Origin: Syntrophomonas sp.
Lineage (GTDB): Bacteria; Bacillota; Syntrophomonadia; Syntrophomonadales; Syntrophomonadaceae
Direction: 5' to 3'
Assembly: GCA_016841425.1 (NCBI GenBank)
Contig: JAENZE010000002.1
Coordinates: 1 to 64,000 of the forward strand
Length of the DNA stretch: 64,000 nucleotides
A program made the position numbers and the translations under genes. Below are positions 5,482-49,832 of the stretch, piece by piece. The notes under the pieces are model-generated. The model saw only the letters and a program-made list of their open reading frames with translations. It ran no database searches and was not told the origin of the DNA. Position 1 is the stretch's first letter, and every line of letters starts with the position of its first letter.

Positions 5482-6192
5482 ATGCTATGGACGACGGTTA
5501 AGGGTGCGGGTAAATCAATTGCCTTCACAGACGTGGAAAAGGGACCGGCTTCGATAGCCGCTCCGAGGTTTTTGGATAAATTTCATGATAAATATATTAA
5601 GCAATGCTACAAGTATTTCAATGCAACAGAGGATATACCTTTCAATTATAGTGAGATGAGGATGCATTCGGTTATGATTCCAGCCTTAGACAAGGTTTCC
5701 GATGCGGTGTTTGTAGAACAATATATAAACAAAAAAGGAAGAGCCGGAAGGGTAGATTACTTGGTTTTATCCGGCAACCAGGTGTATCTTATTGAACTGA
5801 AACACTCATGGTTGAGCTTTAATTCCGGAAATGCAACTGTTGCTACTAATAAGAAATGGCAAAATGCCTTTACTGATTTAAAGGCCGTATCGTGGGAAGA
5901 AGCATTCTCAATATTTCCTGAAGTCAGGACTGTGGCTAAAGTAGCCCTTATGGTTGTTCCTCTGTATAACAGATCTAAAAATTTGAAAAAATTAGCCAAC
6001 CAATCATACACTCTCGAAAGGATTTTTGAAAAATACCGGTCTTTTTCTGATCAATTGTCACCGAAACCAGGTTGGATGGGTATCTGGGCGGTTAAACCGC
6101 AAATGGCCAAACCCATAATAACGAAAGATCATTATTATGAGTGCTATCCTGCGGTTGCCCTGTTTGCCTGTATTAAAGGGAAGACAAAATGA
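5482..6192 (+). CDS. PD-(D/E)XK-like protein, paralogue of 60083-60796
   Basis: This 236-residue protein is closely related to the one at 60083. Shared blocks are GPASIA, MRMHSVMIPALDKVSDA, GRAGRVDYLVLSGN and the C-terminal YECYPAVAL. The central GRAGRVDYLVLSGN plus VYLIELKH carries an Asp, a strand and an E-x-K triad, the typical layout of PD-(D/E)XK nuclease-like folds. That suggests a small nuclease or nuclease-like protein, but no specific family is recognised. ATG 5482 is used because the ATG at 5478, better spaced from GAGAGGAGG, runs into a stop after seven codons; this may reflect a small indel at the start. It is monocistronic between AbrB and a membrane protein. Confidence 0.6.
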   Translation: MLWTTVKGAGKSIAFTDVEKGPASIAAPRFLDKFHDKYIKQCYKYFNATEDIPFNYSEMRMHSVMIPALDKVSDAVFVEQYINKKGRAGRVDYLVLSGNQVYLIELKHSWLSFNSGNATVATNKKWQNAFTDLKAVSWEEAFSIFPEVRTVAKVALMVVPLYNRSKNLKKLANQSYTLERIFEKYRSFSDQLSPKPGWMGIWAVKPQMAKPIITKDHYYECYPAVALFACIKGKTK

Positions 6193-10429: not shown

Positions 10430-12115
10430 TTGGAATGGGCTTTTGACAAAGTTAGCCAACAGAATATAAATGCTAAAGATGCTATTCGAACTGCCAATCG
10501 CTATACTTGTCCCGTTTGCGGAATTGAATGTACTCTTCGAAGAGGAAAGGTAAAGAAACCATATTTTGCTCATATTAATGGTGCTGCCCCTGAAGCTTGT
10601 GAGAATTATCATCCCGGCAACGGAACTAATGGTAATAATAGCCATCTTGGATTTAGATTTCATACCTCTCCCAAGTTGTACATTCGTAAATACAATTCCT
10701 CAAATTGGTATCTGGAAATATTAATCAATGATTATCCTGTGGAAAAGGGAGAAATATCTATCCCTTTTGGTCGCTTTGGGCAAGTCAATATCTCCATACC
10801 CAAAATTAAGGTGGGTGGAATACGCATTCCGGTAAAAACAATGGAATCTTATACTCTTCAAACCAGCGATGAGGTGCCACCCCCTTACAAACAAATGATA
10901 TGTTCTTCTATCGATGGGTTAGATCAGAAAAAGTATAATGTCTTTTATTGCTCAGATGCTGGTGGAATGAGATTACATAAAAAGCAATCGCTAATTTGGG
11001 GACAACAGTATTTTATTGTCTGGCATATGAATTTGGGAATGTTGGGATGGCTACCTAATAATATGCTTCCCCAAGAAAAACTAAATACAAATGACCAATG
11101 GCTTTGTAAAATGATTTGTTTACCTGATGCACAAGATGCGACTATTGAAAAATGGGTTAATAACAAATTGAATTACCAAATTAAACATCCTCCTTTGACA
11201 TTAAATACGTTGTTTCCAATCCCTGATAGAATACTAGATGATGGATCTTCACAAATATCTGAGACAAAATATATATTTATTTCAATAGATAGAAATACAA
11301 CATCAGAGGATTTTTATGAATTAGTAGTTGTGTCAGAGGCTCTTCCCCAATATACAAAAAAGATTAATTTGTGTGGAAAGATGCCAATAATATTGGCTCT
11401 TAACCCGCTACCGTTAGGGCGCACACACCTATGGATTGACGGATACCCGGATATTAGTATAAGTCTATATCATACCCAAAGCATATTTTACGACCACAAT
11501 GTACCTGGTGTTGTATTTACTTTTCAAGATAGTGAGACGAACGAATATATCTCTTCTCCAGCTTTCTCTTCATATACTACATTTCAACTTCAAAAAGTAA
11601 TCTTGGGTAATACATCATTGATTCAGGTTTCTTTACCTAAGAAAGTAAGTGTATTGATAGGCATTCAAAGAGATAACAAAAAGCTATTCAAGGAGTATAG
11701 CATTCCTGAAGGTAGCCACAAAGCATTTGAGCAGCAATTGAAAGATGAAATAATCCAACTGCTCGGTAAAGGGAAGCTAGTAATTGACTTCGGTAATTAC
11801 GGAAAGGTAGAAGTTGATAATGAATTAAATACAGAAGAAAAAATATCATTAACGGATTCCAATCGAAAAAAGCTTAAGTGGCTAATAGCACAAATCTCGT
11901 TAGAGAATAACCTTTATCCGATTGTGGGGATTAAGGAATTTCCAATCCTAAAACTGACTAAACATTGGTTTAACGAGGATGATTATATCCTAATCAAAAA
12001 ACTTATCGGTAATCGTTTTGTACCTTCAGTCTTGTTACCCTATATTAGATCAGTTATCCAAGAGATATCAACTCAACTAAAAATATTTTGCTGGGAGGGG
12101 AAAAATGGAATTTAA
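10430..12115 (+). CDS. DruB-like Druantia component with CoiA-like zinc N-terminus
   Basis: TTG 10430 follows AGAAGGTG and gives 561 residues. The N-terminus has CPVCGIE, a basic segment KVKKPYFAH and a later Cys/His (CENYHPG). This resembles the zinc-binding N-terminal domain of CoiA-type competence proteins, which recognise DNA. The remaining 500 residues are beta-rich with no recognised domain and no membrane segments. It overlaps the next gene by 11 bp and begins a four-gene run that ends in the large DUF1998 helicase. Its size and place fit DruB of type I Druantia, but that label rests on context. It may act as a nucleic-acid sensor or scaffold. Confidence 0.6.
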   Translation: MEWAFDKVSQQNINAKDAIRTANRYTCPVCGIECTLRRGKVKKPYFAHINGAAPEACENYHPGNGTNGNNSHLGFRFHTSPKLYIRKYNSSNWYLEILINDYPVEKGEISIPFGRFGQVNISIPKIKVGGIRIPVKTMESYTLQTSDEVPPPYKQMICSSIDGLDQKKYNVFYCSDAGGMRLHKKQSLIWGQQYFIVWHMNLGMLGWLPNNMLPQEKLNTNDQWLCKMICLPDAQDATIEKWVNNKLNYQIKHPPLTLNTLFPIPDRILDDGSSQISETKYIFISIDRNTTSEDFYELVVVSEALPQYTKKINLCGKMPIILALNPLPLGRTHLWIDGYPDISISLYHTQSIFYDHNVPGVVFTFQDSETNEYISSPAFSSYTTFQLQKVILGNTSLIQVSLPKKVSVLIGIQRDNKKLFKEYSIPEGSHKAFEQQLKDEIIQLLGKGKLVIDFGNYGKVEVDNELNTEEKISLTDSNRKKLKWLIAQISLENNLYPIVGIKEFPILKLTKHWFNEDDYILIKKLIGNRFVPSVLLPYIRSVIQEISTQLKIFCWEGKNGI

Positions 12116-13940
12116 ATCTTATCCTAAAGAAAAGAGAGATTTCATAAGTGAAAGACCAAAAGAGGAAATTATGGCATTTTGTAAAGAAATAGATTATTAT
12201 GCTTGGAAGAAAATAACCTTAAAGTTGCCTCCTGCAAATGGGTTCAGAAAAGGATCTGGCGCTGAAATCAAAGAGCGCTTCAGAAGTTATATCTGGAGAA
12301 TTGGCCATTGGACAGATGGTAATTGGGAACTATTCTCAGAGCTATGGCTTGCTTGGATCAAGTCGCACCCAGTGTTAGATAATCTTTTAGTGCAATATCA
12401 TAATGATCAAGATTTTCAAGGGGGGACTCCAATTTCCCCCAACTCACAATTGGATATAGGCTGTTTTAAGTTTTTATCATCTTTTAACGAGGAATCGGAA
12501 ATATCAAAAGAATTATTAAAACGGTTTTATGATTATGGATATTTTTTAGAAGATACAAAAATTGAATATTATATTTCTTTTGCAAAGTCAGAATTGGAAT
12601 TAAAAATGTTAAAATCTCTACATCAAATTGATGTTTTGAACACAAAGATTGCTGCATTGGAAAAAATAAATACCGAATCCCAGCAAAGATTTGAACAAGA
12701 ACTAAAAGCAAGAAATAACCAATTTGATAGGCTGAATGTAAAAATAATAGAATTACAAAATATTATTTCTGACTTCCAAAGAAGTTTCGTACAAGAACTA
12801 AAAAATAATGATGTTAAGATTGACCTGAATATTGCAGCATTAGAAAATCAAATTAAAAATCTTCATGACTACTGTTCGGAGCTAACCGATTCATTAACCA
12901 ACGATTTAAATGAAAAGCTTGAGGAAATGGCTGCTCTATTGAAATCAGAAGCCGAGGCTCTTATTGAACTAAGATCTGGGTACAGTAATCAGGAAGTTGG
13001 ATTAACAGCCGGACGGACAGCAACTAGCATATTTTTTGAAAGAATTTTTGGGCTTGATATATTTTTGGAATATGACTCTATAGAAAAGATGGACAAAACC
13101 TTTATTCAGAATTTTAAATCGATAGGAATGACATCACGTGGAGCTAAACAATTATCTAAAGAATTAATAGTCACCATCCTTTCACAGGGAACTATTTCAT
13201 TTCAGGGCTCCTTTGCTTCTATATTAGCTCATATATGTGCCAGAACTATATCGGCAACAAACACTTCTATTTGTTATATTCCCGTTGGATTATTAGACGG
13301 AAATAATTTCAGAAAAATATTTGATAGTTTTCTGGCAGAAGCTTCAACAAGTGAGATGATTAGTACACTCATAATTGAAGGGGTGAACCTTTCCGCGTTT
13401 GAGACTTTCGCACCAAGATTAAATAAATACATTGAAGACCAAGCAATAGGAATAAATCCACTTAAAACAATTATTATCTGCACCTTGGTTAATGGACCGG
13501 CTTCGCTCGAATGTCCCTTGATGCTTTGTGATAGTGGACCAATATTTGATACCGATTGCCTTGAATGGCGAAAAAAATGGGAAACGAATGACATTCAGGA
13601 AGGAGCAATTTCGATACATAAATACAATGAATGGAGTGAATGCCCAGTTGATATTCCGGAAAACTGGGATGAATTATATGAAGAATTTAATTGTCTTGGA
13701 GGGTTTACAACAGTTCTTAGGGAACGATTCCTACAGAAAGCTGCAATGCACATAGAAAAAATGAAAGCAAGTAGCTCTATGATACAGTCGTTGGCATTTG
13801 GTTGGTTGATTCCCAGGGGTATTTTATTAAATGTTGATTTTTCAATATACAAAGAACTTATAGCAGGAGGTAAACTCGATGCTGAGCAGCCTGACGAAAG
13901 AATTAACAAATTGTTGGCTTTGAATGTTTTAGGAGATTAG
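12105..13940 (+). CDS. DruC-like Druantia component with central coiled coil
   Basis: This 611-residue protein overlaps the end of the previous gene by 11 bp; GGGAGGGG precedes its ATG. Residues 165-290 form a long predicted coiled coil rich in Leu, Glu, Asn and Lys. The C-terminal half (residues 295-610) is globular and contains an alpha/beta segment (LIIEGVNLSAFETF, KTIIICTLVNGPASL) suggestive of a nucleotide-binding-like core. No Walker A lysine motif is visible, however. In type I Druantia the gene at this position is druC, of unknown function. The coiled coil suggests assembly with the other subunits. The assignment is by position and size. Confidence 0.55.
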   Translation: MEFKSYPKEKRDFISERPKEEIMAFCKEIDYYAWKKITLKLPPANGFRKGSGAEIKERFRSYIWRIGHWTDGNWELFSELWLAWIKSHPVLDNLLVQYHNDQDFQGGTPISPNSQLDIGCFKFLSSFNEESEISKELLKRFYDYGYFLEDTKIEYYISFAKSELELKMLKSLHQIDVLNTKIAALEKINTESQQRFEQELKARNNQFDRLNVKIIELQNIISDFQRSFVQELKNNDVKIDLNIAALENQIKNLHDYCSELTDSLTNDLNEKLEEMAALLKSEAEALIELRSGYSNQEVGLTAGRTATSIFFERIFGLDIFLEYDSIEKMDKTFIQNFKSIGMTSRGAKQLSKELIVTILSQGTISFQGSFASILAHICARTISATNTSICYIPVGLLDGNNFRKIFDSFLAEASTSEMISTLIIEGVNLSAFETFAPRLNKYIEDQAIGINPLKTIIICTLVNGPASLECPLMLCDSGPIFDTDCLEWRKKWETNDIQEGAISIHKYNEWSECPVDIPENWDELYEEFNCLGGFTTVLRERFLQKAAMHIEKMKASSSMIQSLAFGWLIPRGILLNVDFSIYKELIAGGKLDAEQPDERINKLLALNVLGD

Positions 13941-13941
13941 T

Positions 13942-15012
13942 ATGATACATGTTTCTTTAGAGTCGGGCGATACTGCCCTCAAACTTTTGTTACATATATG
14001 CTCGGACGAAAGTGGACCAATATATTCCCATCGCTTTGATCTTGTGATAGCAGATTATTTGAGAAAAAATCTCCATTCTATATCTGTTAGTGGAGAAGAA
14101 TTTGAGCCTATATATATAACTAAGATTACCAATACAACAAGGCGGCAAATAAGTCCTCTATTAAAGTGTACTAATCAATTGGGTATTCCAGAATATTCAA
14201 ACGAACAATTAGATACTATTATTAGAAGAATTCTTAATATTCTAAGGGATTTACGAGATGTGGTCGAACTTGGAATGGGCTATTGGGCACCGGCTCCAAT
14301 AAGGTTTATAGATATAACAAATACTCCAAATGCTTTAGTAATTGGTAGCCTTCCAACGTATAATTTAAACACATTATTTAGCCCGATAATTAAAGTGGCT
14401 GGATTTGCAAGATTTGTCGATAAACTTTCCTTGATAGAGGCCAACCACCAGCACCCTATTTTATGGCAACAGTTCGATAATTGGATTGGAGATATTCCGT
14501 CGGATTTAATAAGTTGGACTAGGCAGATAATGAAATCTGCTAATGAGCAAATGCACCAATCAGCAGCCAACTACGAAAATATCGAGGTCTATTGTCCTTG
14601 GGCAAAAAACAAATTGCAATATTATAGATGGCTAGTATATGAAGATTTTAAAACGATCAACATCCCAACAACAGATTTAATCTTGTTTCGTTCAAAAAGC
14701 GTACCGCGTACCTTTTGGTTTGGAAAATTTTCATCTACTGCACTTGAAGCAGAAGCCTGTGTTCCAAATTATATTGTGCGTCGCCTTTTATATGGATTGG
14801 ATTTGCTCTATAACAATGAGGTTGAAGCAGCCTGGACAGGCAATACCATAACATTTAACAATTGGTTGCCCCCTGAAGAACTTCGGCTTTTAACAGCTGT
14901 AGGGATGGAGTGTTCAACTGAAATAGGAAGATTGCCGTTAAAATACTATATACAACCCGAATGGAAAAGCATAGTTGTTGATAAGTTGCAGTGTCTTGGT
15001 GTTAATAATTAA
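13942..15012 (+). CDS. DruD-like Druantia component
   Basis: This 356-residue protein starts one base after the previous stop. The close packing implies one transcript and probably translational coupling. It is soluble, has no recognised catalytic motif and has a tryptophan-rich C-terminal half. Its position between the coiled-coil protein and the large helicase, and its size, match druD of type I Druantia. The function of that family is not established, and the assignment is contextual. Confidence 0.5.
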   Translation: MIHVSLESGDTALKLLLHICSDESGPIYSHRFDLVIADYLRKNLHSISVSGEEFEPIYITKITNTTRRQISPLLKCTNQLGIPEYSNEQLDTIIRRILNILRDLRDVVELGMGYWAPAPIRFIDITNTPNALVIGSLPTYNLNTLFSPIIKVAGFARFVDKLSLIEANHQHPILWQQFDNWIGDIPSDLISWTRQIMKSANEQMHQSAANYENIEVYCPWAKNKLQYYRWLVYEDFKTINIPTTDLILFRSKSVPRTFWFGKFSSTALEAEACVPNYIVRRLLYGLDLLYNNEVEAAWTGNTITFNNWLPPEELRLLTAVGMECSTEIGRLPLKYYIQPEWKSIVVDKLQCLGVNN

Positions 15013-15023
15013 GGAGGAGCGGT

Positions 15024-18000
15024 ATGAATAGTAAGGATTATGGAGTATTTACTGTAACCAAGGAATTACATGAGACACTTAGAGCTTACTTGGAAGCACT
15101 GTATCATATCAGAAATACTACCTTAATTTCAGAGCGGCGATGTTTACTGGACCAAGCAGGCTGTATTAGCCAGCGGCCATATATTGAATCAACTGCAGTA
15201 TATAAATACGGTACTTCCTACGAGAGGCTGACTATTCCGGATACTGTTAAGGAGATTCTGAGTTATTTATCCACTCTTGATCCGGGAGTAGGAATATATC
15301 CTTCTATATATGCCCACCAATCCAAAGCTTTAGAGGCTGTTTTAGGCAAAAATCAGGATATTATTGTCGCTACGGGGACTGGTTCTGGAAAAACTGAAAC
15401 TTTCTTAATACCTATCTTAGGATCACTAATTCTTGAGGCAAGTGAAAGACCTGAATCTGCACATATGCGAGGGTGTAGAGCATTACTACTTTATCCTATG
15501 AACGCACTTGTTAATGATCAAATTAGTAGAATACGAAAGATATTTGGCGATGAACGTGTTGCACAAGTATTAGAAAAAAATCGCGGGAGAAGGGTTACAT
15601 TTGGGAGCTATACCGGACGCACTCCCTACCCAGGTAAAAGATCGTCAGCAAAAGATACACAGCATATCAAACCCATGTTTGAAGATTTTTATTTAAGGTA
15701 TATAAATAACCCCGAAAAGATTAAACAGCTTAAAGATAAAGGTAAATGGCCATGTAAAAATCTAGTGAAATTTTACGGTGCAGATAAAGAAGAAGAAGCG
15801 GTTTATAGAAGTGGTAAAAAGAAAGGTAAAAAATATACTATTCATCATTGGGGAGAACGGTTAATAACGCAACCTGAAGATATGGAACTTATGACAAGAC
15901 ATGAAATGCAAGTAAATTCCCCAGACATATTGGTTACAAACTACTCAATGTTAGAGTATATGCTGATGAGGCCTATTGAAAACAGCATATTTTTGGATAC
16001 TAAACGTTGGTTAGATAATGATGATAGAAATACTATAACGCTTGTTTTGGATGAAGCTCATATGTATCGAGGAGCAACTGGTGCAGAAGTTGCTATGCTA
16101 ATACGACGGTTTCAGGCCAGATTAGGTATACCGCGTCAACGCTTAAGATGTATTCTTACTAGTGCTAGTCTAGGTAATGGAGACGAAGCCGAAAAAGATT
16201 TGATTTCATTTGCACGGGATTTAACAGGAGCATCAGAAGTTACACCAGGGTTTACGCTTATAAAAGGGGAGACGGAAGATAGAACTGGCGCAAAACAGGG
16301 ATCAAATGAAGAAGCAGATGCTTTTGCATCATTTGAACTTAGTCTTTTCCAGCAATATGAAATTCACCCAGAAGAGGCGATTTCAGCTATAAATAATCTG
16401 GCAAGTCAGTTGAACTGGCCCAAGTTTAATGATGATCCATCCGAATTAAAGCAGTATCTGTTTTCACAGTTAACGGGGTTTGGTGTAGCTGAAGAGTTAA
16501 TAAAATTAGTAGCCGGAAAAGCAATTCAAATAGATGAACTAGCATTTGCACTCTATCCTAATGCGTCTCCAGAAGGAAGAACAAAGGCGACAGAGGCCTT
16601 AATCGCCTTATGTACATTTGCACAAAGAAAAAAAGATGGTCGTATGCTTTTGCCTACCCGTATGCATTTATTCTATAGGGGCCTCCCTGCGCTTTATGGA
16701 TGTACCAACAGACAGTGTGATTGTCGATTAGATAACGAACCAAAAGATAACTACTTATTAGGCAGACTTTATACGGTTCCCAAAGACCATTGTGAGTGTT
16801 CAGCAGGGGCTAGAGTATATGAACTTCTAACCCATCGTGATTGTGGATCGGCCTTTTTACGGGGTTATATTCGCGGAGAGGGAGGGGATTTTTTATTAAG
16901 TGAACCTGATATTGATTTAAATCCAGATGGGCCAGAAGGGAGTGTTCTTCTTAATGAAATTAATTTATTAGTAGAACAGGGATACCATCCATCTGCAGGA
17001 GCAATGGTTTCAAAAATATGGCTGGATATAGTTACAGGGAAAATAATGACTGAAAGACCTGAAGATACTTCTGGCTTTTTAGAGTGTTTTAGGCCAAACC
17101 AAGAGCCTATTAATACAGGACAGCGCAAATTAATAACATTTCCATCGTGTCCTGTATGTTTGAAAAAATTTCGGGGAGAACGATCAAATATAATGGATCT
17201 TTCCACGAAAGGCGAGGCGCCCTTTGCTAATCTTGTAAAAGCCCAGCTAATGTTACAACCTCCTAAACATTTAGAATCAATAGATTTTCCCAATGGGGGA
17301 AGAAAGGTACTGCTTTTCTCTGATGGACGTCAAAAGGCTGCCCGTTTAGCTCGAGATATTCCGAGAGAAGTCGAACACGACTCATTTAGAAGAGCAATTG
17401 CTCTTTCAGCTAACCTTCTTAAAAAAATAAAAGGGAAAGCCAAATTAACTAAAGACTTATATATTTCTTTTATATCGGTAGCCTCGGAGAATAATTTGCA
17501 TCTCTTTGATGGACCAGATAAAGAAAAATTACTTAACCATATCCAATATTTCAGAGAACAGTATGATTCAGACCTTCAAGATGCTCTTGAAGATGGTTGG
17601 GATATTAATCCACCTAAACGTTATTCTGAGGCCTTATTAAGACAACTTTGCAGTTCTCACTTCTCCCTTCAAGCGACTACCGTTGGGTATGTTATTCCAG
17701 CAAATATTGAAAAACTTGAGAGAGGCTTGGCAAATATAATCCCCGGTTTTGATAAACAGCTAGCTAAAGAAATTAGTGTGTTATTCATTGATAATTTACT
17801 CCAGAGTTATGCATTCGATGGTGATATTTCTGATAGCATAAGGAACAAGGTGTCTGGTTATTACCGTCCTAAATGGGGAAGTAAGGCGAAGTTTAAAAAA
17901 GAGATATTACCGGTTTTAATCAACGAATTCGGGTGGCAGGAAACTGTAATTGAATCTGTGCAAACGTTATTAAGAACACAATTATGCCAAGAGGATGATA

Positions 18001-20567
18001 ACACATTCCTGTTAGATAAAAATAAAGTTGCAATTAATATCGACACAGATGCAGATTGGCATCAATGTAATGTATGTAAAGTTCTTTCGCCAGTCAACTT
18101 GGCTGGATTCTGTATTAATTGTGGGGCCAAAGCGATAAAAAACTTATCGCCAAGTTTAAGTGAATATATTAGATCCATAAAAGGTTACTGGAGAGATCCC
18201 GTTGTCAAGTGCTTAAATGGGGAAGGGCGCTTGGATTATATAACTACGGAAGAACATACCGCACAATTATCTCAGCGTGATACGGGGAATGTTTTCGCAA
18301 CCACTGAAAAATATGAGTTGCGTTTTCAAGATGTCATTATTGGTAAAGATGAAGGCCCGATAGATGTGCTTAGTTGTACCACTACTATGGAAGTTGGAGT
18401 TGATATCGGATCATTGGTTGCGGTAGGGCTGAGAAATGTACCTCCGCAACGTGAAAACTATCAACAAAGAGCTGGGCGAGCAGGGCGTAGAGGGTCAGCA
18501 GTATCAACGGTTCTTACATATGCCCAAGGTGGTCCTCATGATAATTACTACTATAACCATCCAAAGGAAATAGTTGCAGGAATTCCAAGAATGCCAGTGG
18601 TCAAAATAAACAATAGAAAAATTATTAAAAGACATATAAATGCATACCTTTTTCAAACATTTTTTCAGGAAGCAATTGACAAAAAAGCTAGGGGCATAGA
18701 TTTAACCTCATCAGCACTTCTTAAGGCTCTTGGGAAAAAGTCTGATTTTTTTTATGGGTCTGATGATAGTGATGTAACATTTCAGAGCTTTAGAATATGG
18801 ATAAATCAAAGAGTTTTGAATAATGATGGCGATTTAGCTAATGCCATTAGTACTTGGTTGCCGCCAACCATTACAGACTCTTTGACTTGGATTAAAGAAG
18901 TCGCCCAAGAATTAATTAATTCTTTAACAGACTCAATAGAAAAAAACATTAGCATTCCTACGGTAATTGAACATTTGGATAATGACTTATCTGAAACTGA
19001 GGAGTTTCTGGAAGACGACGATAAGGATGAATTGCTACAATTTCTTTTTGATAATAATCTTTTGCCTTCATATGCTTTTCCAACTAATCTATGCAGTTTT
19101 CTAGTAGAGAAATGGGAACACAGAGATGGTCGTTTTAGGCTTGTTACCGCGGAACAACCACAACAATCACTTAATAAAGCTCTAACAGAATATGCTCCAG
19201 GTCGGTTGATTGTAATTAATAAGAAAACTTATAGATCTAAGGGAGTCGTTTCTGCAAAGGCAATATCTTCGGAGCCAGACAGAGCAACACCGCTTTTTGA
19301 AGATACCCAAAAATATATTTATTGCACTAAATGTTCGTATGTTCAGGATCCTTTTTCATCAACTTCAAATGCTTTCTTTTGTCCTATTTGCCACGGCGAG
19401 CTTGCAACGGCGGAACTAATTGTTCCACAAGTCTTTACGCCCGAGGAAGGAAAAGCCGTTGATGAATCCGATCGAGATCAGGAAATTACATATGCGACAT
19501 CCGCGCAGTTCCCAGTACCTGCAGGGGAAGAGGATTTGCCTGAGATGGTTACTATAGGGAGCAATACAAGTCATATAACGTATACCTATGCGCAGGATAA
19601 AAGACTTTATATGGTTAATAAAGGGAAACCGAGAGAAGAGAAAGGCTTTTATGTATGTGAAAAATGTGGGCTATCTTTGCAAGAAGAACCTCAACCAAAT
19701 GGTAAGCACAAACGTCCATACTTGGTTGCTTGGAAGCCGGACCAACCACGGAATGATTGTGACGGTGAATTTCATCCCGTATTCCTGGGTTATAATTTTA
19801 TATCTGATCTCCTGTTGATTCGAATGAGACTTTCTTCTCCGTTAAATTTGAATATACGGTCTTCTATTCCAAAAACAGTAATTAATGACGCATTGAGAAC
19901 AATATCGGAAGCCTTGTTATTGGCTGCTAGCAGGGTCCTGGATATAGATTCAACCGAATTCAGTGCAGGATTTAGACTTGTTACTGGATCAGAAGATGAA
20001 ATTACAGCTGACATTTATCTATACGATACCTTATCAGGGGGAGCAGGATATTCACAGCAAGCTGGTGACAATTTGGAAACTATTATGGAAAAAACTCTAG
20101 ATATTCTTGAGAACTGTGATGGTAATTGTGATCGGTCATGTACCTCTTGTCTAAGGCATTACCAGAATCAATATTGGCATGAGCAACTTGATAGGCATTT
20201 AGGCTTTGATCTATTAAAATATGTCTTATCAGATGTTATGCCGAACTCTAATGATCTTCTGCTTCAAAGCGAACGTCTTCGTCCTCTTAAGAGGCTCTTA
20301 TTTTTAGATGGATATACATGCAAGCGTAATGAACTATTCCAGAATGTTTCGATTCCTCTATTAGTGAAAACAGCTACTGATACCTTTGCGATTGGTACAT
20401 ACAATCCTTTGGTTGACAAGAACTCGATAGATTTTGTACATCAATTACATGTTCTTGATGGTGATTGCGAAATCAAATTAATACTATTAAATGAATTTTT
20501 TCTATCCCGAAATCTCCCCGGTGCTTATAAATTAATAAAAGGAAAGATTGATGGACAACATGAATGA
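15024..20567 (+). CDS. druE: DruE, giant DEAD/DEAH-type helicase with C-terminal DUF1998
   Basis: This 1,847-residue protein follows AAGGAGGAGC. Walker A is ATGTGSGKTETF (about residues 115-126), the DEAH box is LVLDEAHMY (about 340), motif V is TTTMEVGVDIGSL and motif VI is QQRAGRAGRRG (about 1,146). Zinc-type cysteine pairs occur at CTKCSY/CPICHG and CEKCG. The C-terminal DUF1998 region has SGGAGYSQQ (about 1,671) and CDGNCDRSCTSCLRHY. This size and domain order identify DruE, the one subunit common to all Druantia types, which is expected to translocate on or remodel invading DNA. It overlaps the downstream nuclease gene, suggesting stoichiometric production of the two. Confidence 0.88.
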   Translation: MNSKDYGVFTVTKELHETLRAYLEALYHIRNTTLISERRCLLDQAGCISQRPYIESTAVYKYGTSYERLTIPDTVKEILSYLSTLDPGVGIYPSIYAHQSKALEAVLGKNQDIIVATGTGSGKTETFLIPILGSLILEASERPESAHMRGCRALLLYPMNALVNDQISRIRKIFGDERVAQVLEKNRGRRVTFGSYTGRTPYPGKRSSAKDTQHIKPMFEDFYLRYINNPEKIKQLKDKGKWPCKNLVKFYGADKEEEAVYRSGKKKGKKYTIHHWGERLITQPEDMELMTRHEMQVNSPDILVTNYSMLEYMLMRPIENSIFLDTKRWLDNDDRNTITLVLDEAHMYRGATGAEVAMLIRRFQARLGIPRQRLRCILTSASLGNGDEAEKDLISFARDLTGASEVTPGFTLIKGETEDRTGAKQGSNEEADAFASFELSLFQQYEIHPEEAISAINNLASQLNWPKFNDDPSELKQYLFSQLTGFGVAEELIKLVAGKAIQIDELAFALYPNASPEGRTKATEALIALCTFAQRKKDGRMLLPTRMHLFYRGLPALYGCTNRQCDCRLDNEPKDNYLLGRLYTVPKDHCECSAGARVYELLTHRDCGSAFLRGYIRGEGGDFLLSEPDIDLNPDGPEGSVLLNEINLLVEQGYHPSAGAMVSKIWLDIVTGKIMTERPEDTSGFLECFRPNQEPINTGQRKLITFPSCPVCLKKFRGERSNIMDLSTKGEAPFANLVKAQLMLQPPKHLESIDFPNGGRKVLLFSDGRQKAARLARDIPREVEHDSFRRAIALSANLLKKIKGKAKLTKDLYISFISVASENNLHLFDGPDKEKLLNHIQYFREQYDSDLQDALEDGWDINPPKRYSEALLRQLCSSHFSLQATTVGYVIPANIEKLERGLANIIPGFDKQLAKEISVLFIDNLLQSYAFDGDISDSIRNKVSGYYRPKWGSKAKFKKEILPVLINEFGWQETVIESVQTLLRTQLCQEDDNTFLLDKNKVAINIDTDADWHQCNVCKVLSPVNLAGFCINCGAKAIKNLSPSLSEYIRSIKGYWRDPVVKCLNGEGRLDYITTEEHTAQLSQRDTGNVFATTEKYELRFQDVIIGKDEGPIDVLSCTTTMEVGVDIGSLVAVGLRNVPPQRENYQQRAGRAGRRGSAVSTVLTYAQGGPHDNYYYNHPKEIVAGIPRMPVVKINNRKIIKRHINAYLFQTFFQEAIDKKARGIDLTSSALLKALGKKSDFFYGSDDSDVTFQSFRIWINQRVLNNDGDLANAISTWLPPTITDSLTWIKEVAQELINSLTDSIEKNISIPTVIEHLDNDLSETEEFLEDDDKDELLQFLFDNNLLPSYAFPTNLCSFLVEKWEHRDGRFRLVTAEQPQQSLNKALTEYAPGRLIVINKKTYRSKGVVSAKAISSEPDRATPLFEDTQKYIYCTKCSYVQDPFSSTSNAFFCPICHGELATAELIVPQVFTPEEGKAVDESDRDQEITYATSAQFPVPAGEEDLPEMVTIGSNTSHITYTYAQDKRLYMVNKGKPREEKGFYVCEKCGLSLQEEPQPNGKHKRPYLVAWKPDQPRNDCDGEFHPVFLGYNFISDLLLIRMRLSSPLNLNIRSSIPKTVINDALRTISEALLLAASRVLDIDSTEFSAGFRLVTGSEDEITADIYLYDTLSGGAGYSQQAGDNLETIMEKTLDILENCDGNCDRSCTSCLRHYQNQYWHEQLDRHLGFDLLKYVLSDVMPNSNDLLLQSERLRPLKRLLFLDGYTCKRNELFQNVSIPLLVKTATDTFAIGTYNPLVDKNSIDFVHQLHVLDGDCEIKLILLNEFFLSRNLPGAYKLIKGKIDGQHE

Positions 20568-21723
20568 ATTTTATATCCTGAGTGAACCAGAGGGTAATCC
20601 CGACATACCTAAATACTGGAGCTATAGTCAACTTGAGGAAATGCGAACCTGCCCTAAGAAATGGTGGTTATCGAGGGCCAAATACCCCAATATTAAAGGG
20701 AATTACCCAAGATATTTTACTTTACCCATGCTGCATGGTATCATTCTCCATAAAACAATTGAAAAATTTGGCCGTTATGCAAAAAAACAAGATAATTACG
20801 ATTTTGCTCGAAGTTATTTTCGAATTCGCAGTGCCATTCAGGCTGAAATTAGAGAGTTGCTTGAATATGAAAGTTCGGTTAATCCGCGGTTTAAAAAATC
20901 ATACTTAAAATCACTATTATGTATAGACGATTGTATAAACAATTTCAAACGAATTATTTCTGAAGTAGAAAAAAACGTATTAATTAGTAACGTTGATTAT
21001 CAATACAATGCTTCCCCACACCCTACTGCGAAGTTGCCAATCAAAGGGCATGAGGTAACTATCTATGTAGAATATCCACCAATAGTTGGCAGAATCGATT
21101 TTATAAACGATGGAAGAATAATTGATTTTAAATCTGGAGCACCAAATTCTGCATATGAAAGCCAGTTGCAGTTTTATGCTTTGTTATTCTGGTTAAAAAC
21201 TGGACATCTACCTTCATCACTTGAAATCGTTTTTTCAAATCATGCTCATGCTACATATAACAATTTGCTTAGTATCGAAAAACTTACAAGTCTACGGGAT
21301 GAAGTAGAGGAGGAAATAATAAACATAGAGGAGAGTATCCAATCAGGTTTACCTGAAGCAAATATTCGAGGAGACCAATGTGAGTACTGCCCATGTAGGC
21401 AGAATTGTGATGAGTACTGGACATACTTAAACAAAGAGAGTAAGGTAATTGAGTTGAATAAAGATAAGTTGGAGCCGTTTTGGATTGATATCGAAATTAT
21501 TGAATTGCCTAATTCTTGGCAAGGATTTGGATCTTGTACCGGAATTGGGCAATCTCAACAATTGGGTGAAGTATATCTTAATATCGAGCCAGACAAATGC
21601 CCTAATAGACTGGATAATAGCTGTCCTGTAGGTGCTAGGATTCTTGGAGCAAAACTTCGTTATGAAACCAATCGTTGGTACTTAAAAACAGCACTTTTTA
21701 CTGAAGTATTCTGGATATATTAA
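20551..21723 (+). CDS. RecB/Cas4-like PD-(D/E)XK nuclease with Fe-S type cysteines
   Basis: About 390 residues, overlapping the end of druE by 17 bp. ATG 20551 is preferred because it sits five bases after AAAGGAAAG; TTG 20548 and ATG 20560 are alternatives. The N-terminus has SYSQLEEMRTCPKKWW, typical of RecB-family nucleases. The catalytic region is VGRIDFINDGRIIDFKSG (D...D-F-K, about residues 180-197), followed by QLQFYALLFW. Near residues 275-287 are three cysteines in CEYCPCRQNC. With the N-terminal CPKKW cysteine they could hold a 4Fe-4S cluster, as in AddB and Cas4. This nuclease is not one of the five standard type I Druantia genes, so it is an unusual addition. Confidence 0.82.
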   Translation: MDNMNEFYILSEPEGNPDIPKYWSYSQLEEMRTCPKKWWLSRAKYPNIKGNYPRYFTLPMLHGIILHKTIEKFGRYAKKQDNYDFARSYFRIRSAIQAEIRELLEYESSVNPRFKKSYLKSLLCIDDCINNFKRIISEVEKNVLISNVDYQYNASPHPTAKLPIKGHEVTIYVEYPPIVGRIDFINDGRIIDFKSGAPNSAYESQLQFYALLFWLKTGHLPSSLEIVFSNHAHATYNNLLSIEKLTSLRDEVEEEIINIEESIQSGLPEANIRGDQCEYCPCRQNCDEYWTYLNKESKVIELNKDKLEPFWIDIEIIELPNSWQGFGSCTGIGQSQQLGEVYLNIEPDKCPNRLDNSCPVGARILGAKLRYETNRWYLKTALFTEVFWIY

Positions 21724-21746
21724 TGCCCTGTATGGTAAGCTTTCCT

Positions 21747-22916
21747 TTAATTAATATTACCATTGATTGACAAAATAGAATTAAATAAATCTATAGTGTT
21801 TTGATGAGTCCATTCAGCATAATTAGGTAGCCTTTCAGCTCGAGGAACTACCCATCTGTTAAGACATGCTTCGGATATATCTTTGACAGAAGGTCTAGAA
21901 ACCAAACAAAAATCGTCTGAGCCTTGCAGGTACTCTTTCCAATTAGTAGCTATCGGCATAGCATAAATTTCACGTGCTATTCCGTGTTTTAAAACGTCAA
22001 TACTTACCCCTGAGTACTTTAGGGCTTGCCGAATTACTCTCCATTTCCAATTTGGTCCGCTGCCGTATTGATAACCCAAAGCATATGAATGTCCCTTAAT
22101 TATTAATAACTCGCGCATTGCATCAAATAGCTCATTTGATATTTGAAAATGTCCATAACCCTTTGTTTGTCCTATCTTAATTAGGTTGACTATTCCAGGT
22201 ATTTTTAAACGGTTGTATATTGATGAACGTCCTAAGGCCGATGTGACAGTAATCAATGCTAGAGCATGGTCTTTAACCTGATTACTAATTATTCCACGTT
22301 TTCCTTCGTATTTCTTCAGATAATAATCCACAACTTCTTGTGACCCAATCAAGCTTGCCACAAGTTTTCCGCCTAATAACATATTGTAAGGTGGAACTGC
22401 ACCGACGACATATGCATCCATGACATTTACTAGTCTTGCTTTTCTATCATCAGAATTCCAGCCAATTAGACTATCGCGGGCAGTTAGATTAAATACAGGG
22501 TCACCAAGAGCAAATATACCTATTAGTTTATCGTTATTACTATCAATAATCAGAAATCGCATTCTTCGTCCGAATCCCTTTGAAACAGGCACTGACCAGA
22601 GTAACGTAGCCAACCTGAACAATAATGCAGTTTGCGAATTATTAACTGGAACAATTCTTGCTTCAATCTTAGTGGGGGTAATTTCATTTCCAGCAGCAAA
22701 GAATTTTAGTAATTTATTTAGATTAGGAATAAGCTTGCTACTCTCTTTTCCTATGGTCTCTTTTCGCTGGGGGGAATGCATCATTCGAATGTTTTCTTTA
22801 GTCAGTTGCTCAATATTTCCAATAATATTAGAATTCATTAACCCTTCTGAAGTAAGGAGAGATAGAATTTTATTGATGATTTCATTTTCAGAAAACGTAT
22901 CTCGACTATTTGACAT
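21747..22916 (-). CDS. druA: DruA, DUF4338 Druantia protein
   Basis: This 389-residue protein is encoded convergently to the helicase operon, 23 bp from the nuclease stop. The central part shows the DUF4338 pattern: RRMRFLIIDSNNDKLIGIFA, then GDPVFNLTARD, then VMDAYVVGAVPPYNMLLGGK (about residues 165-184), and later ALGRSSIYNRL and GSGPNWKWRVIRQAL. DruA of type I Druantia is the DUF4338 protein. In the classical operon it comes first and on the same strand as druB-E. Here it is last and inverted, so its expression must be independent. No nuclease motif is evident. Confidence 0.85.
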   Translation of the reverse strand: MSNSRDTFSENEIINKILSLLTSEGLMNSNIIGNIEQLTKENIRMMHSPQRKETIGKESSKLIPNLNKLLKFFAAGNEITPTKIEARIVPVNNSQTALLFRLATLLWSVPVSKGFGRRMRFLIIDSNNDKLIGIFALGDPVFNLTARDSLIGWNSDDRKARLVNVMDAYVVGAVPPYNMLLGGKLVASLIGSQEVVDYYLKKYEGKRGIISNQVKDHALALITVTSALGRSSIYNRLKIPGIVNLIKIGQTKGYGHFQISNELFDAMRELLIIKGHSYALGYQYGSGPNWKWRVIRQALKYSGVSIDVLKHGIAREIYAMPIATNWKEYLQGSDDFCLVSRPSVKDISEACLNRWVVPRAERLPNYAEWTHQNTIDLFNSILSINGNIN

Positions 22917-23356: not shown

Positions 23357-23725
23357 CTAACGCTTTATAAACTTCTCAAGGATCGTACTTATTACTGTTT
23401 TGTCCGAATCTGGTATTCTGCTATCCAGGTAACAAATTAAAACATCCTTCATTGAGCTCAGTTCTTCTTGAGATAATTGGTTCACAGCCATGTCAACAAG
23501 AGTAAGTACTTCTGCATCCCGATCATGGATATTTTTAGCCTTCTGATAAATATCAAAAAAAGTAATATAATCTCTGTCAGATAGGTCAAATTTATCACGG
23601 TCAATTACATGATCAATATAGCCAGCCTGCATCATGAGTTCCTCATAAGAAATGCCTAGAAAAGGAGCGATGGCCTTAAGTACCCTGGGAGTAGATTTTC
23701 TTTCTCCTGATTCCAAGCGACTTAT
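23357..23725 (-). pseudogene. XRE-family repressor, C-terminal part, split by an IS21-type element
   Basis: The minus-strand frame ISRLESGERKSTPRVLKAIA continues through FLGISYEELMMQAGYI, which is the end of an XRE helix-turn-helix and the following helix, with a C-terminal extension to about residue 120. Its upstream codons stop at the IS boundary at 23725/23726. The matching N-terminal piece is found beyond the element at 25610-25708. A TTG within the frame could drive a product of 119 residues, but it would lack the recognition helix. Confidence 0.75.
23720..23725. repeat. Target-site duplication, left copy
   Basis: ACTTAT at 23720-23725 is repeated at 25610-25615 directly against the other end of the IS. 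Removing the IS and one copy restores a continuous XRE reading frame (VSTTAIS joined to RLESGER), which confirms the boundary. Confidence 0.85.
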
Positions 23726-25609
23726 TGCATATACCGGTTTCCCAGAGCCGCCTGTCCGGTAGTCATTGAGCCACCAGTCTGGATTTCGTGAGCCGGTATT
23801 CCGGCCCAGAAATCCAGATTAAAATAAACCCATGATGATTATAGTAATCAACAGTTCTTACTCAACTTAATCTTAAACCTGCTGCATATGCTTAATCCCG
23901 TAGTATTCAGCACCCCGGGTAAAACCGTAGTGCTCTGCTTCAGCCGTGTGTGTTTTGGCTACTTCATCAGTCACTTTATCCTGACCGGTAACCAGGATGT
24001 TTTTCACACTCTTTAAGCTAGGACGGGGGGTGTAAGATAAAGCTCTTTTACAGGCAGCCTCCAATCTTTCGGTAGAATGCTTGTCAGCCAGCTTCAAAAG
24101 TCCCATACAGGCTTTATAGCCTTGTTGTTCAACCCTATGGGAGTTAAGAATAGATTTAACCGTAAACACGGTATTGGGACCAATCCTTTCAGCCCATTCA
24201 ATGAAGCGCTCACCATTCCACTGAATATATTTTTGATGTTCTTCCGGCATATGATTCTCAATGGTACTATATTGACCAGTACGTCCATAAAGCCTTTTGT
24301 GAGAACAGATTCGGTTGTTATGATAAAAGACCTCCACCATGTTACGGGTAAGCCTGACATCTACCTTTTGCTTAATGTACTCGTATGGAACTGAGTAGTG
24401 CATTTTATCAACAGCTATATGATAATTAAACTGAACGGTAGCTTGTTTCCATTCTGCCAGTTCAAAGTGTGCAGCAGGTAACGATATCAGCAAAGGTTTT
24501 TCTTCCTCAAGAAAGATGCTGAACCTGCTGCCGTCTTTTTTCTGGAATGGGCGCTTATTATATTCATCCAGCTTGGCTTTAATCTCCTGGTTCAGCTCTG
24601 CCAGGGTAAAAAACTTTTGGTTACGTAAAGCAGCAATGATCCAAGTAGAGATTACTCTGACCGCCCCTTCAGCATGGGGCTTATCCTGGGGTTTTCTTAC
24701 CCTGGCAGGAATAACCGCCGTTTCATAGTACTCTGCCATCTCATGATAAGTTTTGTTAATCACTGGGGTATACCAGTCTACTCTGTCTACACCAGTTTTT
24801 AAATTATCCGGAATCAGTATCCGGGTAGATCCACCGAAAAAGCGGTACATGTTCACGTGGGCATTTATCCAGCTTTCCAGTTTCATTGATAAAAATGCTT
24901 CCACGTAAGTGTATTGGCTGTAGGATAGCACTCCTACAAAAATGTAAGCCGGAATGATTTCTCCGTTATCCCGGTCTACTATGGAGGCAGGTTTTCCGGC
25001 CCAGTCGACTTCTACTTGTTCACCAGGTTTTCTGGGGATGTGCATGGAAGCACGTTTTTTCTCCGAAAACTTTTGGTAGTGGTAGCAGAATTGGGAGTAC
25101 ATAAGGGGTATCTCATTACTCTGACGGCACTTTTCACAGTATTCGTGCCACAGTAGCTTTAACGATACTCCGTTGCGCATAAGTTCCTTATGGATGTATT
25201 CCACATCGGGATACCTGCGCTCAGATTGTGCCGGTTCTTTGGAGAAGAATAATTTCTCCAACTCGGCATCGGTTTGCTCTAAGCTTAAGGGCCAATGGAT
25301 GTTAAGCTCTTGAGCTCTCCTAATTACTTTGGCAACAGTATTGCGCGAGCATTTACAGCTAACTGCGATGCTGCGCTGACTGATCCCCTGGCTGTATAGC
25401 CTGAGGATCTCACGATAACTGGTCATTCAAATGACCTCCTTTAAAAATGTATTTACACTTATCAGTGCATGGTTACATTCTAAAGGATGATCATTATGGC
25501 TTTCGGCTACGGAACAGTGGCTCTCAATCAGCGGATTGGTGGCTCTAAATTACCGGACACCTGGCTCTCATTCTCCGGACTGGTGGCTCATTGTGGTCCG
25601 GAATACTCA
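23726..25609 (-). mobile_element. IS21-type insertion sequence lacking istB, 1,884 bp
   Basis: The element runs from TGCATATACCGG at the left to CCGGAATACTCA at the right, giving the TG...CA ends typical of the IS21 family. It is flanked by the direct repeat ACTTAT (23720-23725 and 25610-25615). Near each end are several copies of a repeat close to GAGCCACCAGTCCGG: about three at the left and four at the right in inverted orientation, matching the multiple terminal transposase sites of IS21 elements. It contains istA only. The 147 bp between istA and the left end cannot hold the istB helper ATPase. Confidence 0.85.
23873..25426 (-). CDS. istA: IstA-type transposase of IS21 family
   Basis: This 517-residue protein is preceded by AAAGGAGGTCATTTGA. 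An N-terminal helix-turn-helix (YSQGISQRSIAVSCKCSRNT) is followed by the DDE integrase core: first Asp in VEVDWAGKP, second in LIPDNLKTGV, and Glu in KPHAEGAVR. The C-terminal region has the usual IstA block HYSVPYEYIKQKVDVR. It catalyses strand transfer at the element ends. The partner ATPase IstB, which is normally encoded immediately downstream and selects targets, is missing here. Movement would need IstB supplied by another copy in the genome. Confidence 0.93.
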   Translation of the reverse strand: MTSYREILRLYSQGISQRSIAVSCKCSRNTVAKVIRRAQELNIHWPLSLEQTDAELEKLFFSKEPAQSERRYPDVEYIHKELMRNGVSLKLLWHEYCEKCRQSNEIPLMYSQFCYHYQKFSEKKRASMHIPRKPGEQVEVDWAGKPASIVDRDNGEIIPAYIFVGVLSYSQYTYVEAFLSMKLESWINAHVNMYRFFGGSTRILIPDNLKTGVDRVDWYTPVINKTYHEMAEYYETAVIPARVRKPQDKPHAEGAVRVISTWIIAALRNQKFFTLAELNQEIKAKLDEYNKRPFQKKDGSRFSIFLEEEKPLLISLPAAHFELAEWKQATVQFNYHIAVDKMHYSVPYEYIKQKVDVRLTRNMVEVFYHNNRICSHKRLYGRTGQYSTIENHMPEEHQKYIQWNGERFIEWAERIGPNTVFTVKSILNSHRVEQQGYKACMGLLKLADKHSTERLEAACKRALSYTPRPSLKSVKNILVTGQDKVTDEVAKTHTAEAEHYGFTRGAEYYGIKHMQQV

Positions 25610-35934: not shown

Positions 35935-36393
35935 ATGACTGGAAAAACACATTTTATTGGAGGCATCCTGGCCGGGGTATTAATCACCCAGGCATTGGAT
36001 ATAAACATTGGGTATGCTGTTATCTCAGGATTGGGGGGATTATTACCGGATATAGATGAACCAAATTCAACTATAGGTAGAAGAATACCGGGTTCATTTA
36101 TAGTTAAATTCCTGTTTGGGCATAGGGGGTTTTGGCATTCCTTATTGGCAGCAGCTCTAGTCTATCTACTTATCTTAGGAGTGACATCCAGCACTTTTGC
36201 GGTGTTGTTTGTGGCAGGGTATATTTCGCATTTACTATTAGATGCCTGTACTCCTTCGGGAGTACCTTTTTTATACCCGATAAAACATAATTACTCGTTA
36301 AATTTAATTAAGACAGGGGGGGTAATTGAATACGCATTTTTGGTTTTTTTGTTGGCAGCAGTGTTTTTTACAACGGGAGGGATACAAACATGA
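35935..36393 (+). CDS. YdjM-type membrane-bound metal-dependent hydrolase
   Basis: This 152-residue protein follows AGGAGGCGGGG. It shows the family pattern: MTGKTHFIGGIL, GGLLPDIDEPNSTIGRR, GHRGFWHSL and GYISHLLLDACTPSGVPFLYP, with conserved His/Asp residues in and between four membrane spans. The family is linked to LexA-controlled YdjM in Escherichia coli and has an unproven hydrolase role. It overlaps the first pilin-like gene by 4 bp (ATGA), so it belongs to the secretion operon. Confidence 0.85.
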   Translation: MTGKTHFIGGILAGVLITQALDINIGYAVISGLGGLLPDIDEPNSTIGRRIPGSFIVKFLFGHRGFWHSLLAAALVYLLILGVTSSTFAVLFVAGYISHLLLDACTPSGVPFLYPIKHNYSLNLIKTGGVIEYAFLVFLLAAVFFTTGGIQT

Positions 36394-36728
36394 GGAATTT
36401 ATTTATTTTATTTGCATTACTAATACTATTTGTTTTAGTGCCAATACCAGCCCTGGCTGAATCTATGGAAACTATAGATATTGGCAGTGTGGCATCCGTG
36501 AACAGCGCGGAATTTATACAGAAGGTTTCCACCATGGCTTATGCCTTGTATGGGGTTGCTGTAAAAGTAATTGCCCCGCTCACAGTTATTATTTTGGTTA
36601 TTGGAGGAATAGCCGCTGTATTTTTTAAAGTAGCTAGGACAATAATTGTCTGGGCAATAATCGGCATGGTTTTGGTTTTCTGGTCACCAATGCTGGTGCA
36701 GTTGATCACGAACTGGGTAACAATGTGA
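36390..36728 (+). CDS. VirB2/TrbC-like pilin, first copy
   Basis: This 112-residue protein has a signal peptide (residues 1-23, ending PIPALAES), a short acidic stretch, then two long hydrophobic segments (about 48-75 and 80-108) separated by a short basic loop (FFKVARTI). This is the usual layout of VirB2/TrbC pilins. It is translationally coupled to the YdjM gene upstream and lies 16 bp before the second pilin-like gene. It probably forms the surface fibre or the membrane scaffold of the secretion system. Confidence 0.68.
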   Translation: MRNLFILFALLILFVLVPIPALAESMETIDIGSVASVNSAEFIQKVSTMAYALYGVAVKVIAPLTVIILVIGGIAAVFFKVARTIIVWAIIGMVLVFWSPMLVQLITNWVTM

Positions 36729-36744
36729 AGGAGGGAATTTTAAT

Positions 36745-37119
36745 TTGAAAAAAAATAAAATAGCAATTCTATTCCTGCTCATCGTATGTATGTTTGCAAT
36801 GCCAGTTATGGTTTATGCTGAGGACGATAGTGGTGATAATAAAAATGAAGTAGGTATGATTGATGTAGGCTCAGGATTAGGAGCAGTTGAGAAAGACGCA
36901 CTAGCCCAGAAGGTGCTCGATATTATAACCAATATAGGTTACTTTATTGGGGTAGTTGCAGTCGGTGCATTAGTTTACAACGCATTTAGGTTGGCGACTG
37001 GGGATGAAAAGAAACGTGCTGATGCCAAATCCCATATATTTTATACGTTAGGGGCAGTTGTATTAGTAGGGATGGCATTACTTATTGTTGGCTGGGTAGC
37101 CGGACTACTAGTAAACTAA
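36745..37119 (+). CDS. VirB2/TrbC-like pilin, second copy
   Basis: TTG 36745 after AAGGAGGG gives 124 residues. A signal peptide ends near AMPVMVYAED. Acidic residues follow, then two hydrophobic segments (about 60-80 and 95-122) with a charged loop, GDEKKRADAKSH. The order and loop charge resemble VirB2-type pilins. A strong terminator lies right behind it, so the two pilins can be made in excess over the downstream machinery. Confidence 0.68.
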   Translation: MKKNKIAILFLLIVCMFAMPVMVYAEDDSGDNKNEVGMIDVGSGLGAVEKDALAQKVLDIITNIGYFIGVVAVGALVYNAFRLATGDEKKRADAKSHIFYTLGAVVLVGMALLIVGWVAGLLVN

Positions 37120-37124
37120 GACGA

Positions 37125-37157
37125 AAAAGGCAGGTATTATCCTGCCTTTTCTATTTT
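37125..37157 (+). terminator. Operon-internal terminator after the pilin genes
   Basis: AAAAGGCAGG pairs perfectly with CCTGCCTTTT around TATTAT, followed by a T-rich run. It would reduce, not block, transcription into prgI and virB4. Confidence 0.85.
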
Positions 37158-37174
37158 TATAGGAGGTGTGGCCT

Positions 37175-37510
37175 TTGAAAGTATATCCAGTGCCATTTTC
37201 AACCAAAGAGGAAGATAAATTAATTTTTAATCTTTCTACTAAACAATCATTAATTATAGGTGCGAGTGTTATTCTTGCCCTAATTACTGCTGGTTTATTA
37301 ACAGCAATATTACAAACCCAGATGCTTTTTTGTCTGCCGATAGGACTGCCTGTTATTTTTGTAGGTGTAATATTGGCTATGAAGAAAATTGAGATATCAG
37401 GCTGTGAAATGACCACCGGGGATTACTTGTTTTATAGGTATAAATACAGCCAACGTAAACGCCACTATTTAACGCAAAGAGGGGAAGGAGAAACGAAATG
37501 GTATTTTTGA
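37175..37510 (+). CDS. PrgI/VirB3-like membrane protein
   Basis: TTG 37175, nine bases after AGGAGGTG, gives MKVYPVPFSTKEEDKLIF, the classical PrgI opening; the GTG at 37166 would add three residues and lies in the ribosome site. Two hydrophobic segments (about residues 24-46 and 48-68) are followed by a basic cytoplasmic tail. PrgI is the VirB3 counterpart in Gram-positive conjugation systems and partners the VirB4 ATPase. The gene overlaps the next by 13 bp. Confidence 0.85.
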   Translation: MKVYPVPFSTKEEDKLIFNLSTKQSLIIGASVILALITAGLLTAILQTQMLFCLPIGLPVIFVGVILAMKKIEISGCEMTTGDYLFYRYKYSQRKRHYLTQRGEGETKWYF

Positions 37511-42438: not shown

Positions 42439-42451
42439 TTGAATATTTTAC

Positions 42452-42479
42452 AATACCCGCCTTCGAGCGGGTATTTTTT
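42452..42479 (+). terminator. Operon-internal terminator after the VirB6-like gene
   Basis: AATACCCGC pairs with GCGGGTATT around CTTCGA and is followed by TTTTA. The ribosome site of the cell-wall hydrolase comes directly after it. Confidence 0.85.
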
Positions 42480-42492
42480 ATGAGGTGATTTA

Positions 42493-44445: not shown

Positions 44446-44464
44446 TAATTAAATAGGATAATAG

Positions 44465-44493
44465 TTGCAAATTGTTTACGTATAAGTTACTAT
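44465..44493 (+). promoter_or_regulatory. Promoter of leader unit B
   Basis: TTGCAA (44465-44470) and TACTAT (44488-44493) are separated by 17 bp. The predicted start is just before the conserved leader at 44506. Confidence 0.55.
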
Positions 44494-44505
44494 TGTATAA
44501 GGGTT

Positions 44506-44619
44506 ATAAGACATAAACAGAACGAGTCCAAAACGACAACAAATTTGTCCCAAATGGGCTATCAGATTCTTGCGCCCATCAGTAAGTGTTGAAAGAGGTA
44601 TAAAAATACCTCTTTTTTT
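44506..44619 (+). ncRNA. Leader/small RNA unit B, near-identical to 34188-34300
   Basis: The second copy of the 113-nt unit. All three hairpins of unit A are kept: GACAA/TTGTC, ATGGGC/GCCCAT and the terminator GAGGTAT/ATACCTC with its T-run. Differences fall in loops and linkers or preserve pairing. It lies before the M48 protease and the GGDEF fusion gene. Its sequence identity outside the stems (for example AACAGAACGAGTCCAAAACG) is higher than expected for a simple terminator and implies selection on the RNA. Confidence 0.65.
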
Positions 44620-44640
44620 ATCCATATTTTTGGGAAAGAG

Positions 44641-44654: not shown

Positions 44655-44678
44655 AACAAATTGAAAGGGGATTTTTTA

Positions 44679-48782: not shown

Positions 48783-48784
48783 TC

Positions 48785-49786: not shown

Positions 49787-49832
49787 TTTCTAAAGTAAAT
49801 GCTTTATATCTAAGCACAGGAGGAATATTATT

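Follow-up and report, generated by a model that had tools for sequence, protein, structure and literature searches.

A nuclease has been described for type III Druantia (DruH-DruE), in which DruE was reported to be a helicase-nuclease that prefers 3'-tailed DNA (PMC13192584), its active nuclease being a fused PLD domain (PMC12458937, PMC13192584). Type I and type II DruE are reported to contain a Vsr-like domain that is inactivated (Bell et al. 2025, PMC12458937). Canonical type I loci (druABCDE; e.g., Pseudomonas putida pKF715A, L021) carry druA first and co-directional with the other genes; neither a mechanism for type I Druantia nor a Cas4-like nuclease in it was found in the openly accessible literature. 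Since PADLOC lists a nuclease model, DruK, a Druantia-associated nuclease is not without precedent. Outside Druantia, AddAB/AdnAB, Dna2, and Bad (PMC7430649) combine a helicase with a RecB-type PD-(D/E)XK nuclease, and several of them contain an Fe-S cluster.

The window analysed here was the 64,000-nucleotide stretch from position 1 to 64,000 of Syntrophomonas sp. contig JAENZE010000002.1 (GCA_016841425.1), and all coordinates refer to it unless a locus is named. A first-pass annotation had placed a Druantia-like locus with an added nuclease at 10430-22916. An ORF check of the window found all six ORFs intact at those positions. The five dru genes were as follows:

10430..12115, + strand: druB, 561 aa; PADLOC DruB1 (1.3e-22, residues 1-494); CoiA-like N-terminus (Pfam CoiA_N, 1e-8)
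12105..13940, + strand: druC, 611 aa, overlapping druB; PADLOC DruC1 (5.8e-39)
13942..15012, + strand: druD, 356 aa; PADLOC DruD1 (7.3e-18, residues 36-354)
15024..20567, + strand: druE, 1847 aa; PADLOC DruE1 (PDLC00013; E=0, 2090 bits, residues 4-1841)
20247..20564, + strand: DruE residues 1742-1847, predicted restriction-endonuclease-like domain without conserved catalytic residues (model and alignment)
21747..22916, - strand: druA, 389 aa, short-type in the DruA tree; PADLOC DruA1 (2.5e-138); Pfam DruA (5.6e-84)

Gene content and assignment of the locus

The genes druB, druC, druD, and druE all lie on the + strand and are spaced by overlaps or short gaps. The druE product is a YprA-family SF2 helicase with Walker A (TGTGSGKTE) and DEAH motifs and an MrfA-type Zn-binding domain (Pfam DEAD, Helicase_C, and MZB). 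The suspected Druantia identity, which had been drawn from a giant helicase, three genes of DruB/C/D size, and a DruA protein, was borne out by the profile searches: all five proteins matched PADLOC type I models within one locus, the B, C, and D proteins included. On the basis of this gene content, 10430-22916 is classed from sequence as a complete Druantia type I locus with an extra nuclease gene in its operon. Membership of type III was not found for the locus, as the DruE3 models scored far below DruE1, the other Dru proteins matched type I, and the DruE C-terminus was restriction-endonuclease-like.

The window locus has the same five proteins as the canonical type I loci, and its DruE is 44-53% identical to those of that clade. 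It differs from them in the druE-overlapping nuclease gene and in druA, which is convergent and last, on the minus strand 23 bp past the nuclease stop. The inverted, trailing druA had been put forward as a mark of a variant. Its convergent position at the far end was confirmed, but it is not a distinguishing trait: among the matches listed, the 40 DruE loci with druA in reach comprised 22 with druA upstream and co-directional, 7 downstream and co-directional, 6 upstream and divergent (near-identical haloarchaeal loci), and 5 downstream and convergent. All four placements occurred, and a trailing convergent druA was rejected as a hallmark because place and direction vary. The DruA tree contained proteins of two sizes, with the window DruA of the short type and those of L109 and L113 of the long type. 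A sequence search of DruA against solved structures gave no match.

The nuclease gene and its residues were located as follows, with residue numbering from TTG 20548:

20551..21723, + strand: nuclease gene from ATG 20551, 390 aa (alternative starts TTG 20548 and ATG 20560); PD-(D/E)XK, RecB/AddB type
20551..20567, + strand: 17 bp shared by druE and the nuclease gene, read from the sequence (druE stop 20565-20567)
20650..20652, + strand: Cys35, first Cys of a probable 4Fe-4S site, invariant in 14 homologues
21097..21132, + strand: catalytic core GRIDF...IIDFK with D184, D193, and K195
21379..21408, + strand: Cys278-x2-Cys281-x5-Cys287, the other Cys of the probable 4Fe-4S site, invariant in 14 homologues
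21409..21720, + strand: C-terminal domain, residues 288-391, possibly an OB fold, with a terminal conserved E-V-F motif (conservation and a weak fold match)

The 17-bp overlap with druE, as first annotated, is correct provided that the nuclease starts at ATG 20551. The ORF (20548-21723) matched Pfam PDDEXK_1 (3.6e-16; 60.3 bits against a curated cut-off of 22). Across 14 homologues D184 and K195 were invariant and D193 was nearly so; Q206 and Y210, as accessory residues, and H68 were conserved among relatives. The spacing C...C-x2-C-x5-C is that of the 4Fe-4S site of AddB, Dna2, and Cas4, and the Cys signature of the window nuclease is a probable 4Fe-4S site. The earlier description as a PD-(D/E)XK nuclease with Cas4-like cysteines held for an intact-looking enzyme of RecB/AddB type, with Cas4 models remaining below cut-off (Pfam Cas_Cas4, 20.2 against 22.7 bits; NCBIfam TIGR00372, 36.9 against 65).

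The AlphaFold2 model of the nuclease had a mean pLDDT of 72.7, with the C-terminal domain poorly resolved. Its nearest solved folds were ACE1 (Z 13.9), AdnA (13.3), AddB (12.9), and Dna2 (11.4); the best matches were RecB-type DNA nucleases, many with Fe-S clusters and many partnered with helicases. The closest of them, the Argonaute-associated Cas4 ACE1 (9iab), aligned over 222 residues (rmsd 3.4, 15% identity). ACE1 and CRISPR Cas4 differ from the window nuclease in having other partners, and the window nuclease stays under the Cas4 HMM cut-offs. The last 100 residues were conserved among bacterial relatives, and D314, E316, R364, and E386 of the C-terminal domain were conserved in 10 homologues. 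In this low-confidence part of the model, the domain resembled the OB folds of LEF-3 and CST weakly (Z about 5), for which reason an OB fold is put forward as a suggestion.

DruK of PADLOC-DB shares the PD-(D/E)XK superfamily and the system name with the window nuclease. The DruK model matched residues 177-295, covering 119/326 positions (1.3e-9), no better than Cas4 (8.3e-10), and no strong DruK match was found in 29 DruE genomes. Neither PADLOC nor the openly accessible literature lists this family for type I Druantia; a Druantia-linked nuclease as such is already recorded in DruK. The view that Druantia encodes no nuclease and the first-pass statement that its effector step is unknown are outdated in view of that model and of the type III helicase-nuclease (PMC13192584).

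Recurrence of the nuclease beside DruE

A three-DruE alignment fetched 80 genome loci (among the matches listed) and 16 viral contigs; closer relatives of the window may exist. An iterated nuclease profile was then run across all ORFs of the fetched DruE loci. Of the 78 DruE loci whose downstream DNA was readable, 18 had the nuclease family directly after druE, and these 18 loci spanned five bacterial phyla, haloarchaea, and the window (among the matches listed). The bacterial cases were L109 and L113 (Actinomycetota), L085 and L100 (Myxococcota), L096 (Pseudomonadota), L112 (Planctomycetota), and L115 (Gemmatimonadota); the gene also followed DruE in viral contigs L135, L137, and L145 and in six near-identical haloarchaeal loci, and it was partial in L117 and L125. 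The first-pass annotation had set the absence of the nuclease beside druE in every other genome as a refuting condition; the gene adjoins druE in many unrelated genomes, and the idea was not refuted on this count. An apparent DruE-nuclease fusion in L117 was rejected, as there were two separate frames and the nuclease ORF was truncated.

In L109, L113, L085, L096, L100, L112, L115, and L175, as in the window, DruE is followed by a full-length nuclease and a DruD homologue lies upstream. The druE and nuclease genes overlapped by 4 bp in L109, L113, L085, L100, and L175. Unlike the window, the nuclease-bearing relatives mostly had no recognisable DruB or DruC, with other large proteins in their place. 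The window's six-gene order was found in no other DruE locus among the matches listed; nearest were L109 and L113, with DruD-DruE-nuclease and, like the window, a convergent DruA, but no recognisable DruB or DruC.

The core of the haloarchaeal nuclease genes aligned with the rest, and their C-terminal domain was absent, which is why they were omitted from nuclease model A4 (ten sequences). A4 was searched against about 1,400 genomes, taken from the phyla of the window, L113, L085, L096, L112, and L053 together with the genomes of 16 loci. All full-length matches adjoined DruE (9/9); eight of the nine had already been reached via DruE, and genome G480 (L175), with its 4-bp overlap, was the sole blind case. 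G821 held a C-terminal nuclease remnant only, without DruE, and the other matches covered the generic nuclease core only. A plasmid tblastn with the window nuclease, and scans of viral contigs with the nuclease alone or the nuclease alignment, gave no match, the family being too diverged for these methods.

Pairwise distances of nuclease and DruE were correlated over 12 loci (r=0.91, permutation p=0.0002), a correlation that can also stem from shared host ancestry. The window DruE fell inside the canonical type I clade, where its neighbours from Alicyclobacillus, Neobacillus, Thiomargarita, and Planctomycetota (51-53% identical) were all without the nuclease (among the matches listed); it was 33-35% identical to the DruE of nuclease-bearing relatives. 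The window nuclease formed a lone deep branch in a weakly supported nuclease tree and was 16-26% identical to its relatives. Such a branch gave no support to a recent import from one sampled clade. On the DruE tree, presence of the nuclease required at least 7 changes (78 loci, among the matches listed). These relationships would fit two histories: a partnership of long standing that the canonical branch has lost, or an acquisition in the distant past.

A further reading, possible if doubtful, is that the Fe-S nuclease was ancestral to the Druantia type I/DruE1 lineage, was kept in scattered bacteria, haloarchaea, and the window, and was lost in the canonical proteobacterial operons. If it were true, type I Druantia at its root would be a split AddAB-like helicase-nuclease, and the five-gene system would be a reduced version, which either recruits a nuclease of the host or blocks DNA and leaves it uncut.

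Proposed role of the nuclease and alternatives

AlphaFold2 modelled a 148-residue C-terminal fragment of DruE with a pLDDT of 86.8. Its fold (VIA) gave Z scores of 9.8 to 3hrl, 9.1 to the I-Bth0305I catalytic domain, and 7.6 to Vsr. No conserved catalytic acid or Lys was found in this domain across 24-25 homologues; one row from the plasmid collection was left out of the alignment used for modelling. The inactive-looking C-terminus of the window DruE is an independent agreement with PMC12458937. As the domain is without conserved catalytic residues, the adjacent gene plausibly supplies the nuclease to DruE in trans.

It is moderately probable that the locus is a type I Druantia in which the task of destroying DNA falls to a dedicated Fe-S PD-(D/E)XK nuclease, co-encoded and co-translated with DruE. 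With DruA-DruD aiding the choice, DruE would engage a DNA structure specific to infection and would then translocate along and unwind it. Bound to DruE, and perhaps gripping single-stranded DNA through its C-terminal OB-like domain, the nuclease would cut the unwound strand, the two polypeptides acting as an analogue of AddAB or Dna2. The C-terminal nuclease-like domain of DruE, its active site lost, would probably be a docking or DNA-binding module.

A helicase working with a nuclease has a precedent within Druantia because type III DruE was reported as a helicase-nuclease (PMC13192584); there, as in the window, a YprA-family helicase is coupled to a nuclease, which in type III is fused rather than separate. 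By analogy, DruE may pass a strand of infection-specific DNA to the separate nuclease. AddAB/AdnAB, Dna2, and Bad differ in being SF1 helicases with a fused nuclease, while the window has an SF2 YprA-family helicase and a nuclease gene of its own. We infer the complex, its polarity, the activity and target of the nuclease, phage protection, and the degradation of DNA by the system's own nuclease, the last of which the first-pass annotation had also proposed. With an intact nuclease beside DruE in a natural type I operon, the effector question becomes testable by single catalytic mutants. The findings also suggest that Druantia annotation rules should seek a nuclease after druE.

The position after druE might instead be a variable slot in which the nuclease, like other defence genes that have come to lie there, is an optional accessory, widening or backing up a core activity able to function on its own; we regard this as rather unlikely. 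The nuclease was absent from all 14 of the nearest DruE relatives whose downstream DNA was readable and left room for it (among the matches listed), from which it follows that type I can exist without the nuclease and that the nuclease may be accessory. Moreover, L065 has a NERD-UvrD helicase in this slot and L068 a gene of similar size; L124 has a P-loop helicase-like gene there, L105 DUF4365 with PDC-M02B, L079 a GHKL ATPase, and L053 an IS110 transposase. The tight translational overlap, the co-occurrence of full-length family members and DruE, and the correlated divergence nevertheless suit a fixed partner better than casual cargo.

Many defence nucleases are abortive, and the present data do not fix the substrate, so that the nuclease could act on host DNA or RNA after infection sensing rather than break down phage DNA in the wake of the helicase. 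We consider such an abortive effector improbable, as the fold neighbours process DNA ends and flaps and the partner is a DNA helicase. Least credible is a chance neighbour unrelated to Druantia, for example a RecB-like or Cas4-like leftover of a mobile element: the region is mobile and defence-rich, with an IS21-like transposase nearby (23873-25426), but recurrence next to DruE across phyla, the held-out genome included, largely refutes it.

Surroundings of the locus and related loci

The IS21-like transposase adjoins a 119-aa ORF (23357-23716) that is similar to the latter half of an XRE-type regulator. The transposase is flanked by 50-nt inverted repeats (23755-23804 and 25553-25602, 70%), and the insertion may cut the XRE-type regulator. 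A second defence cluster occupies 47865-56845 and comprises DarG/DarT (47865-49786), Gabija GajA/GajB (51569-55493), and a SIR2-domain protein (55706-56845). A TraG/VirB4-like ATPase (38198-39982) lies amid small membrane proteins (35935-45563), and the region may travel on a conjugative-type element. The ORFs at 5482-6192 and 60083-60796 (236 and 237 aa) resemble each other at the N-terminus (TVKGAGKS.../TINGAGNT..., GPASIA...) and appear to be a duplicated family that flanks the island on both sides.

Other helicase genes were seen at related loci. Between DruD and DruE, L096 encodes a protein that joins a ParE/RelE-like domain to a UvrD helicase (L096:7500-9653), which is the ARMADA type II architecture (PMC12458937); L085 and L100 have similar-sized genes at this position of the DruD-DruE interval. 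The L065 gene for a NERD nuclease with a UvrD-like helicase (L065:15988-17724) begins at the druE stop and is a nuclease module of another kind at the position after druE.
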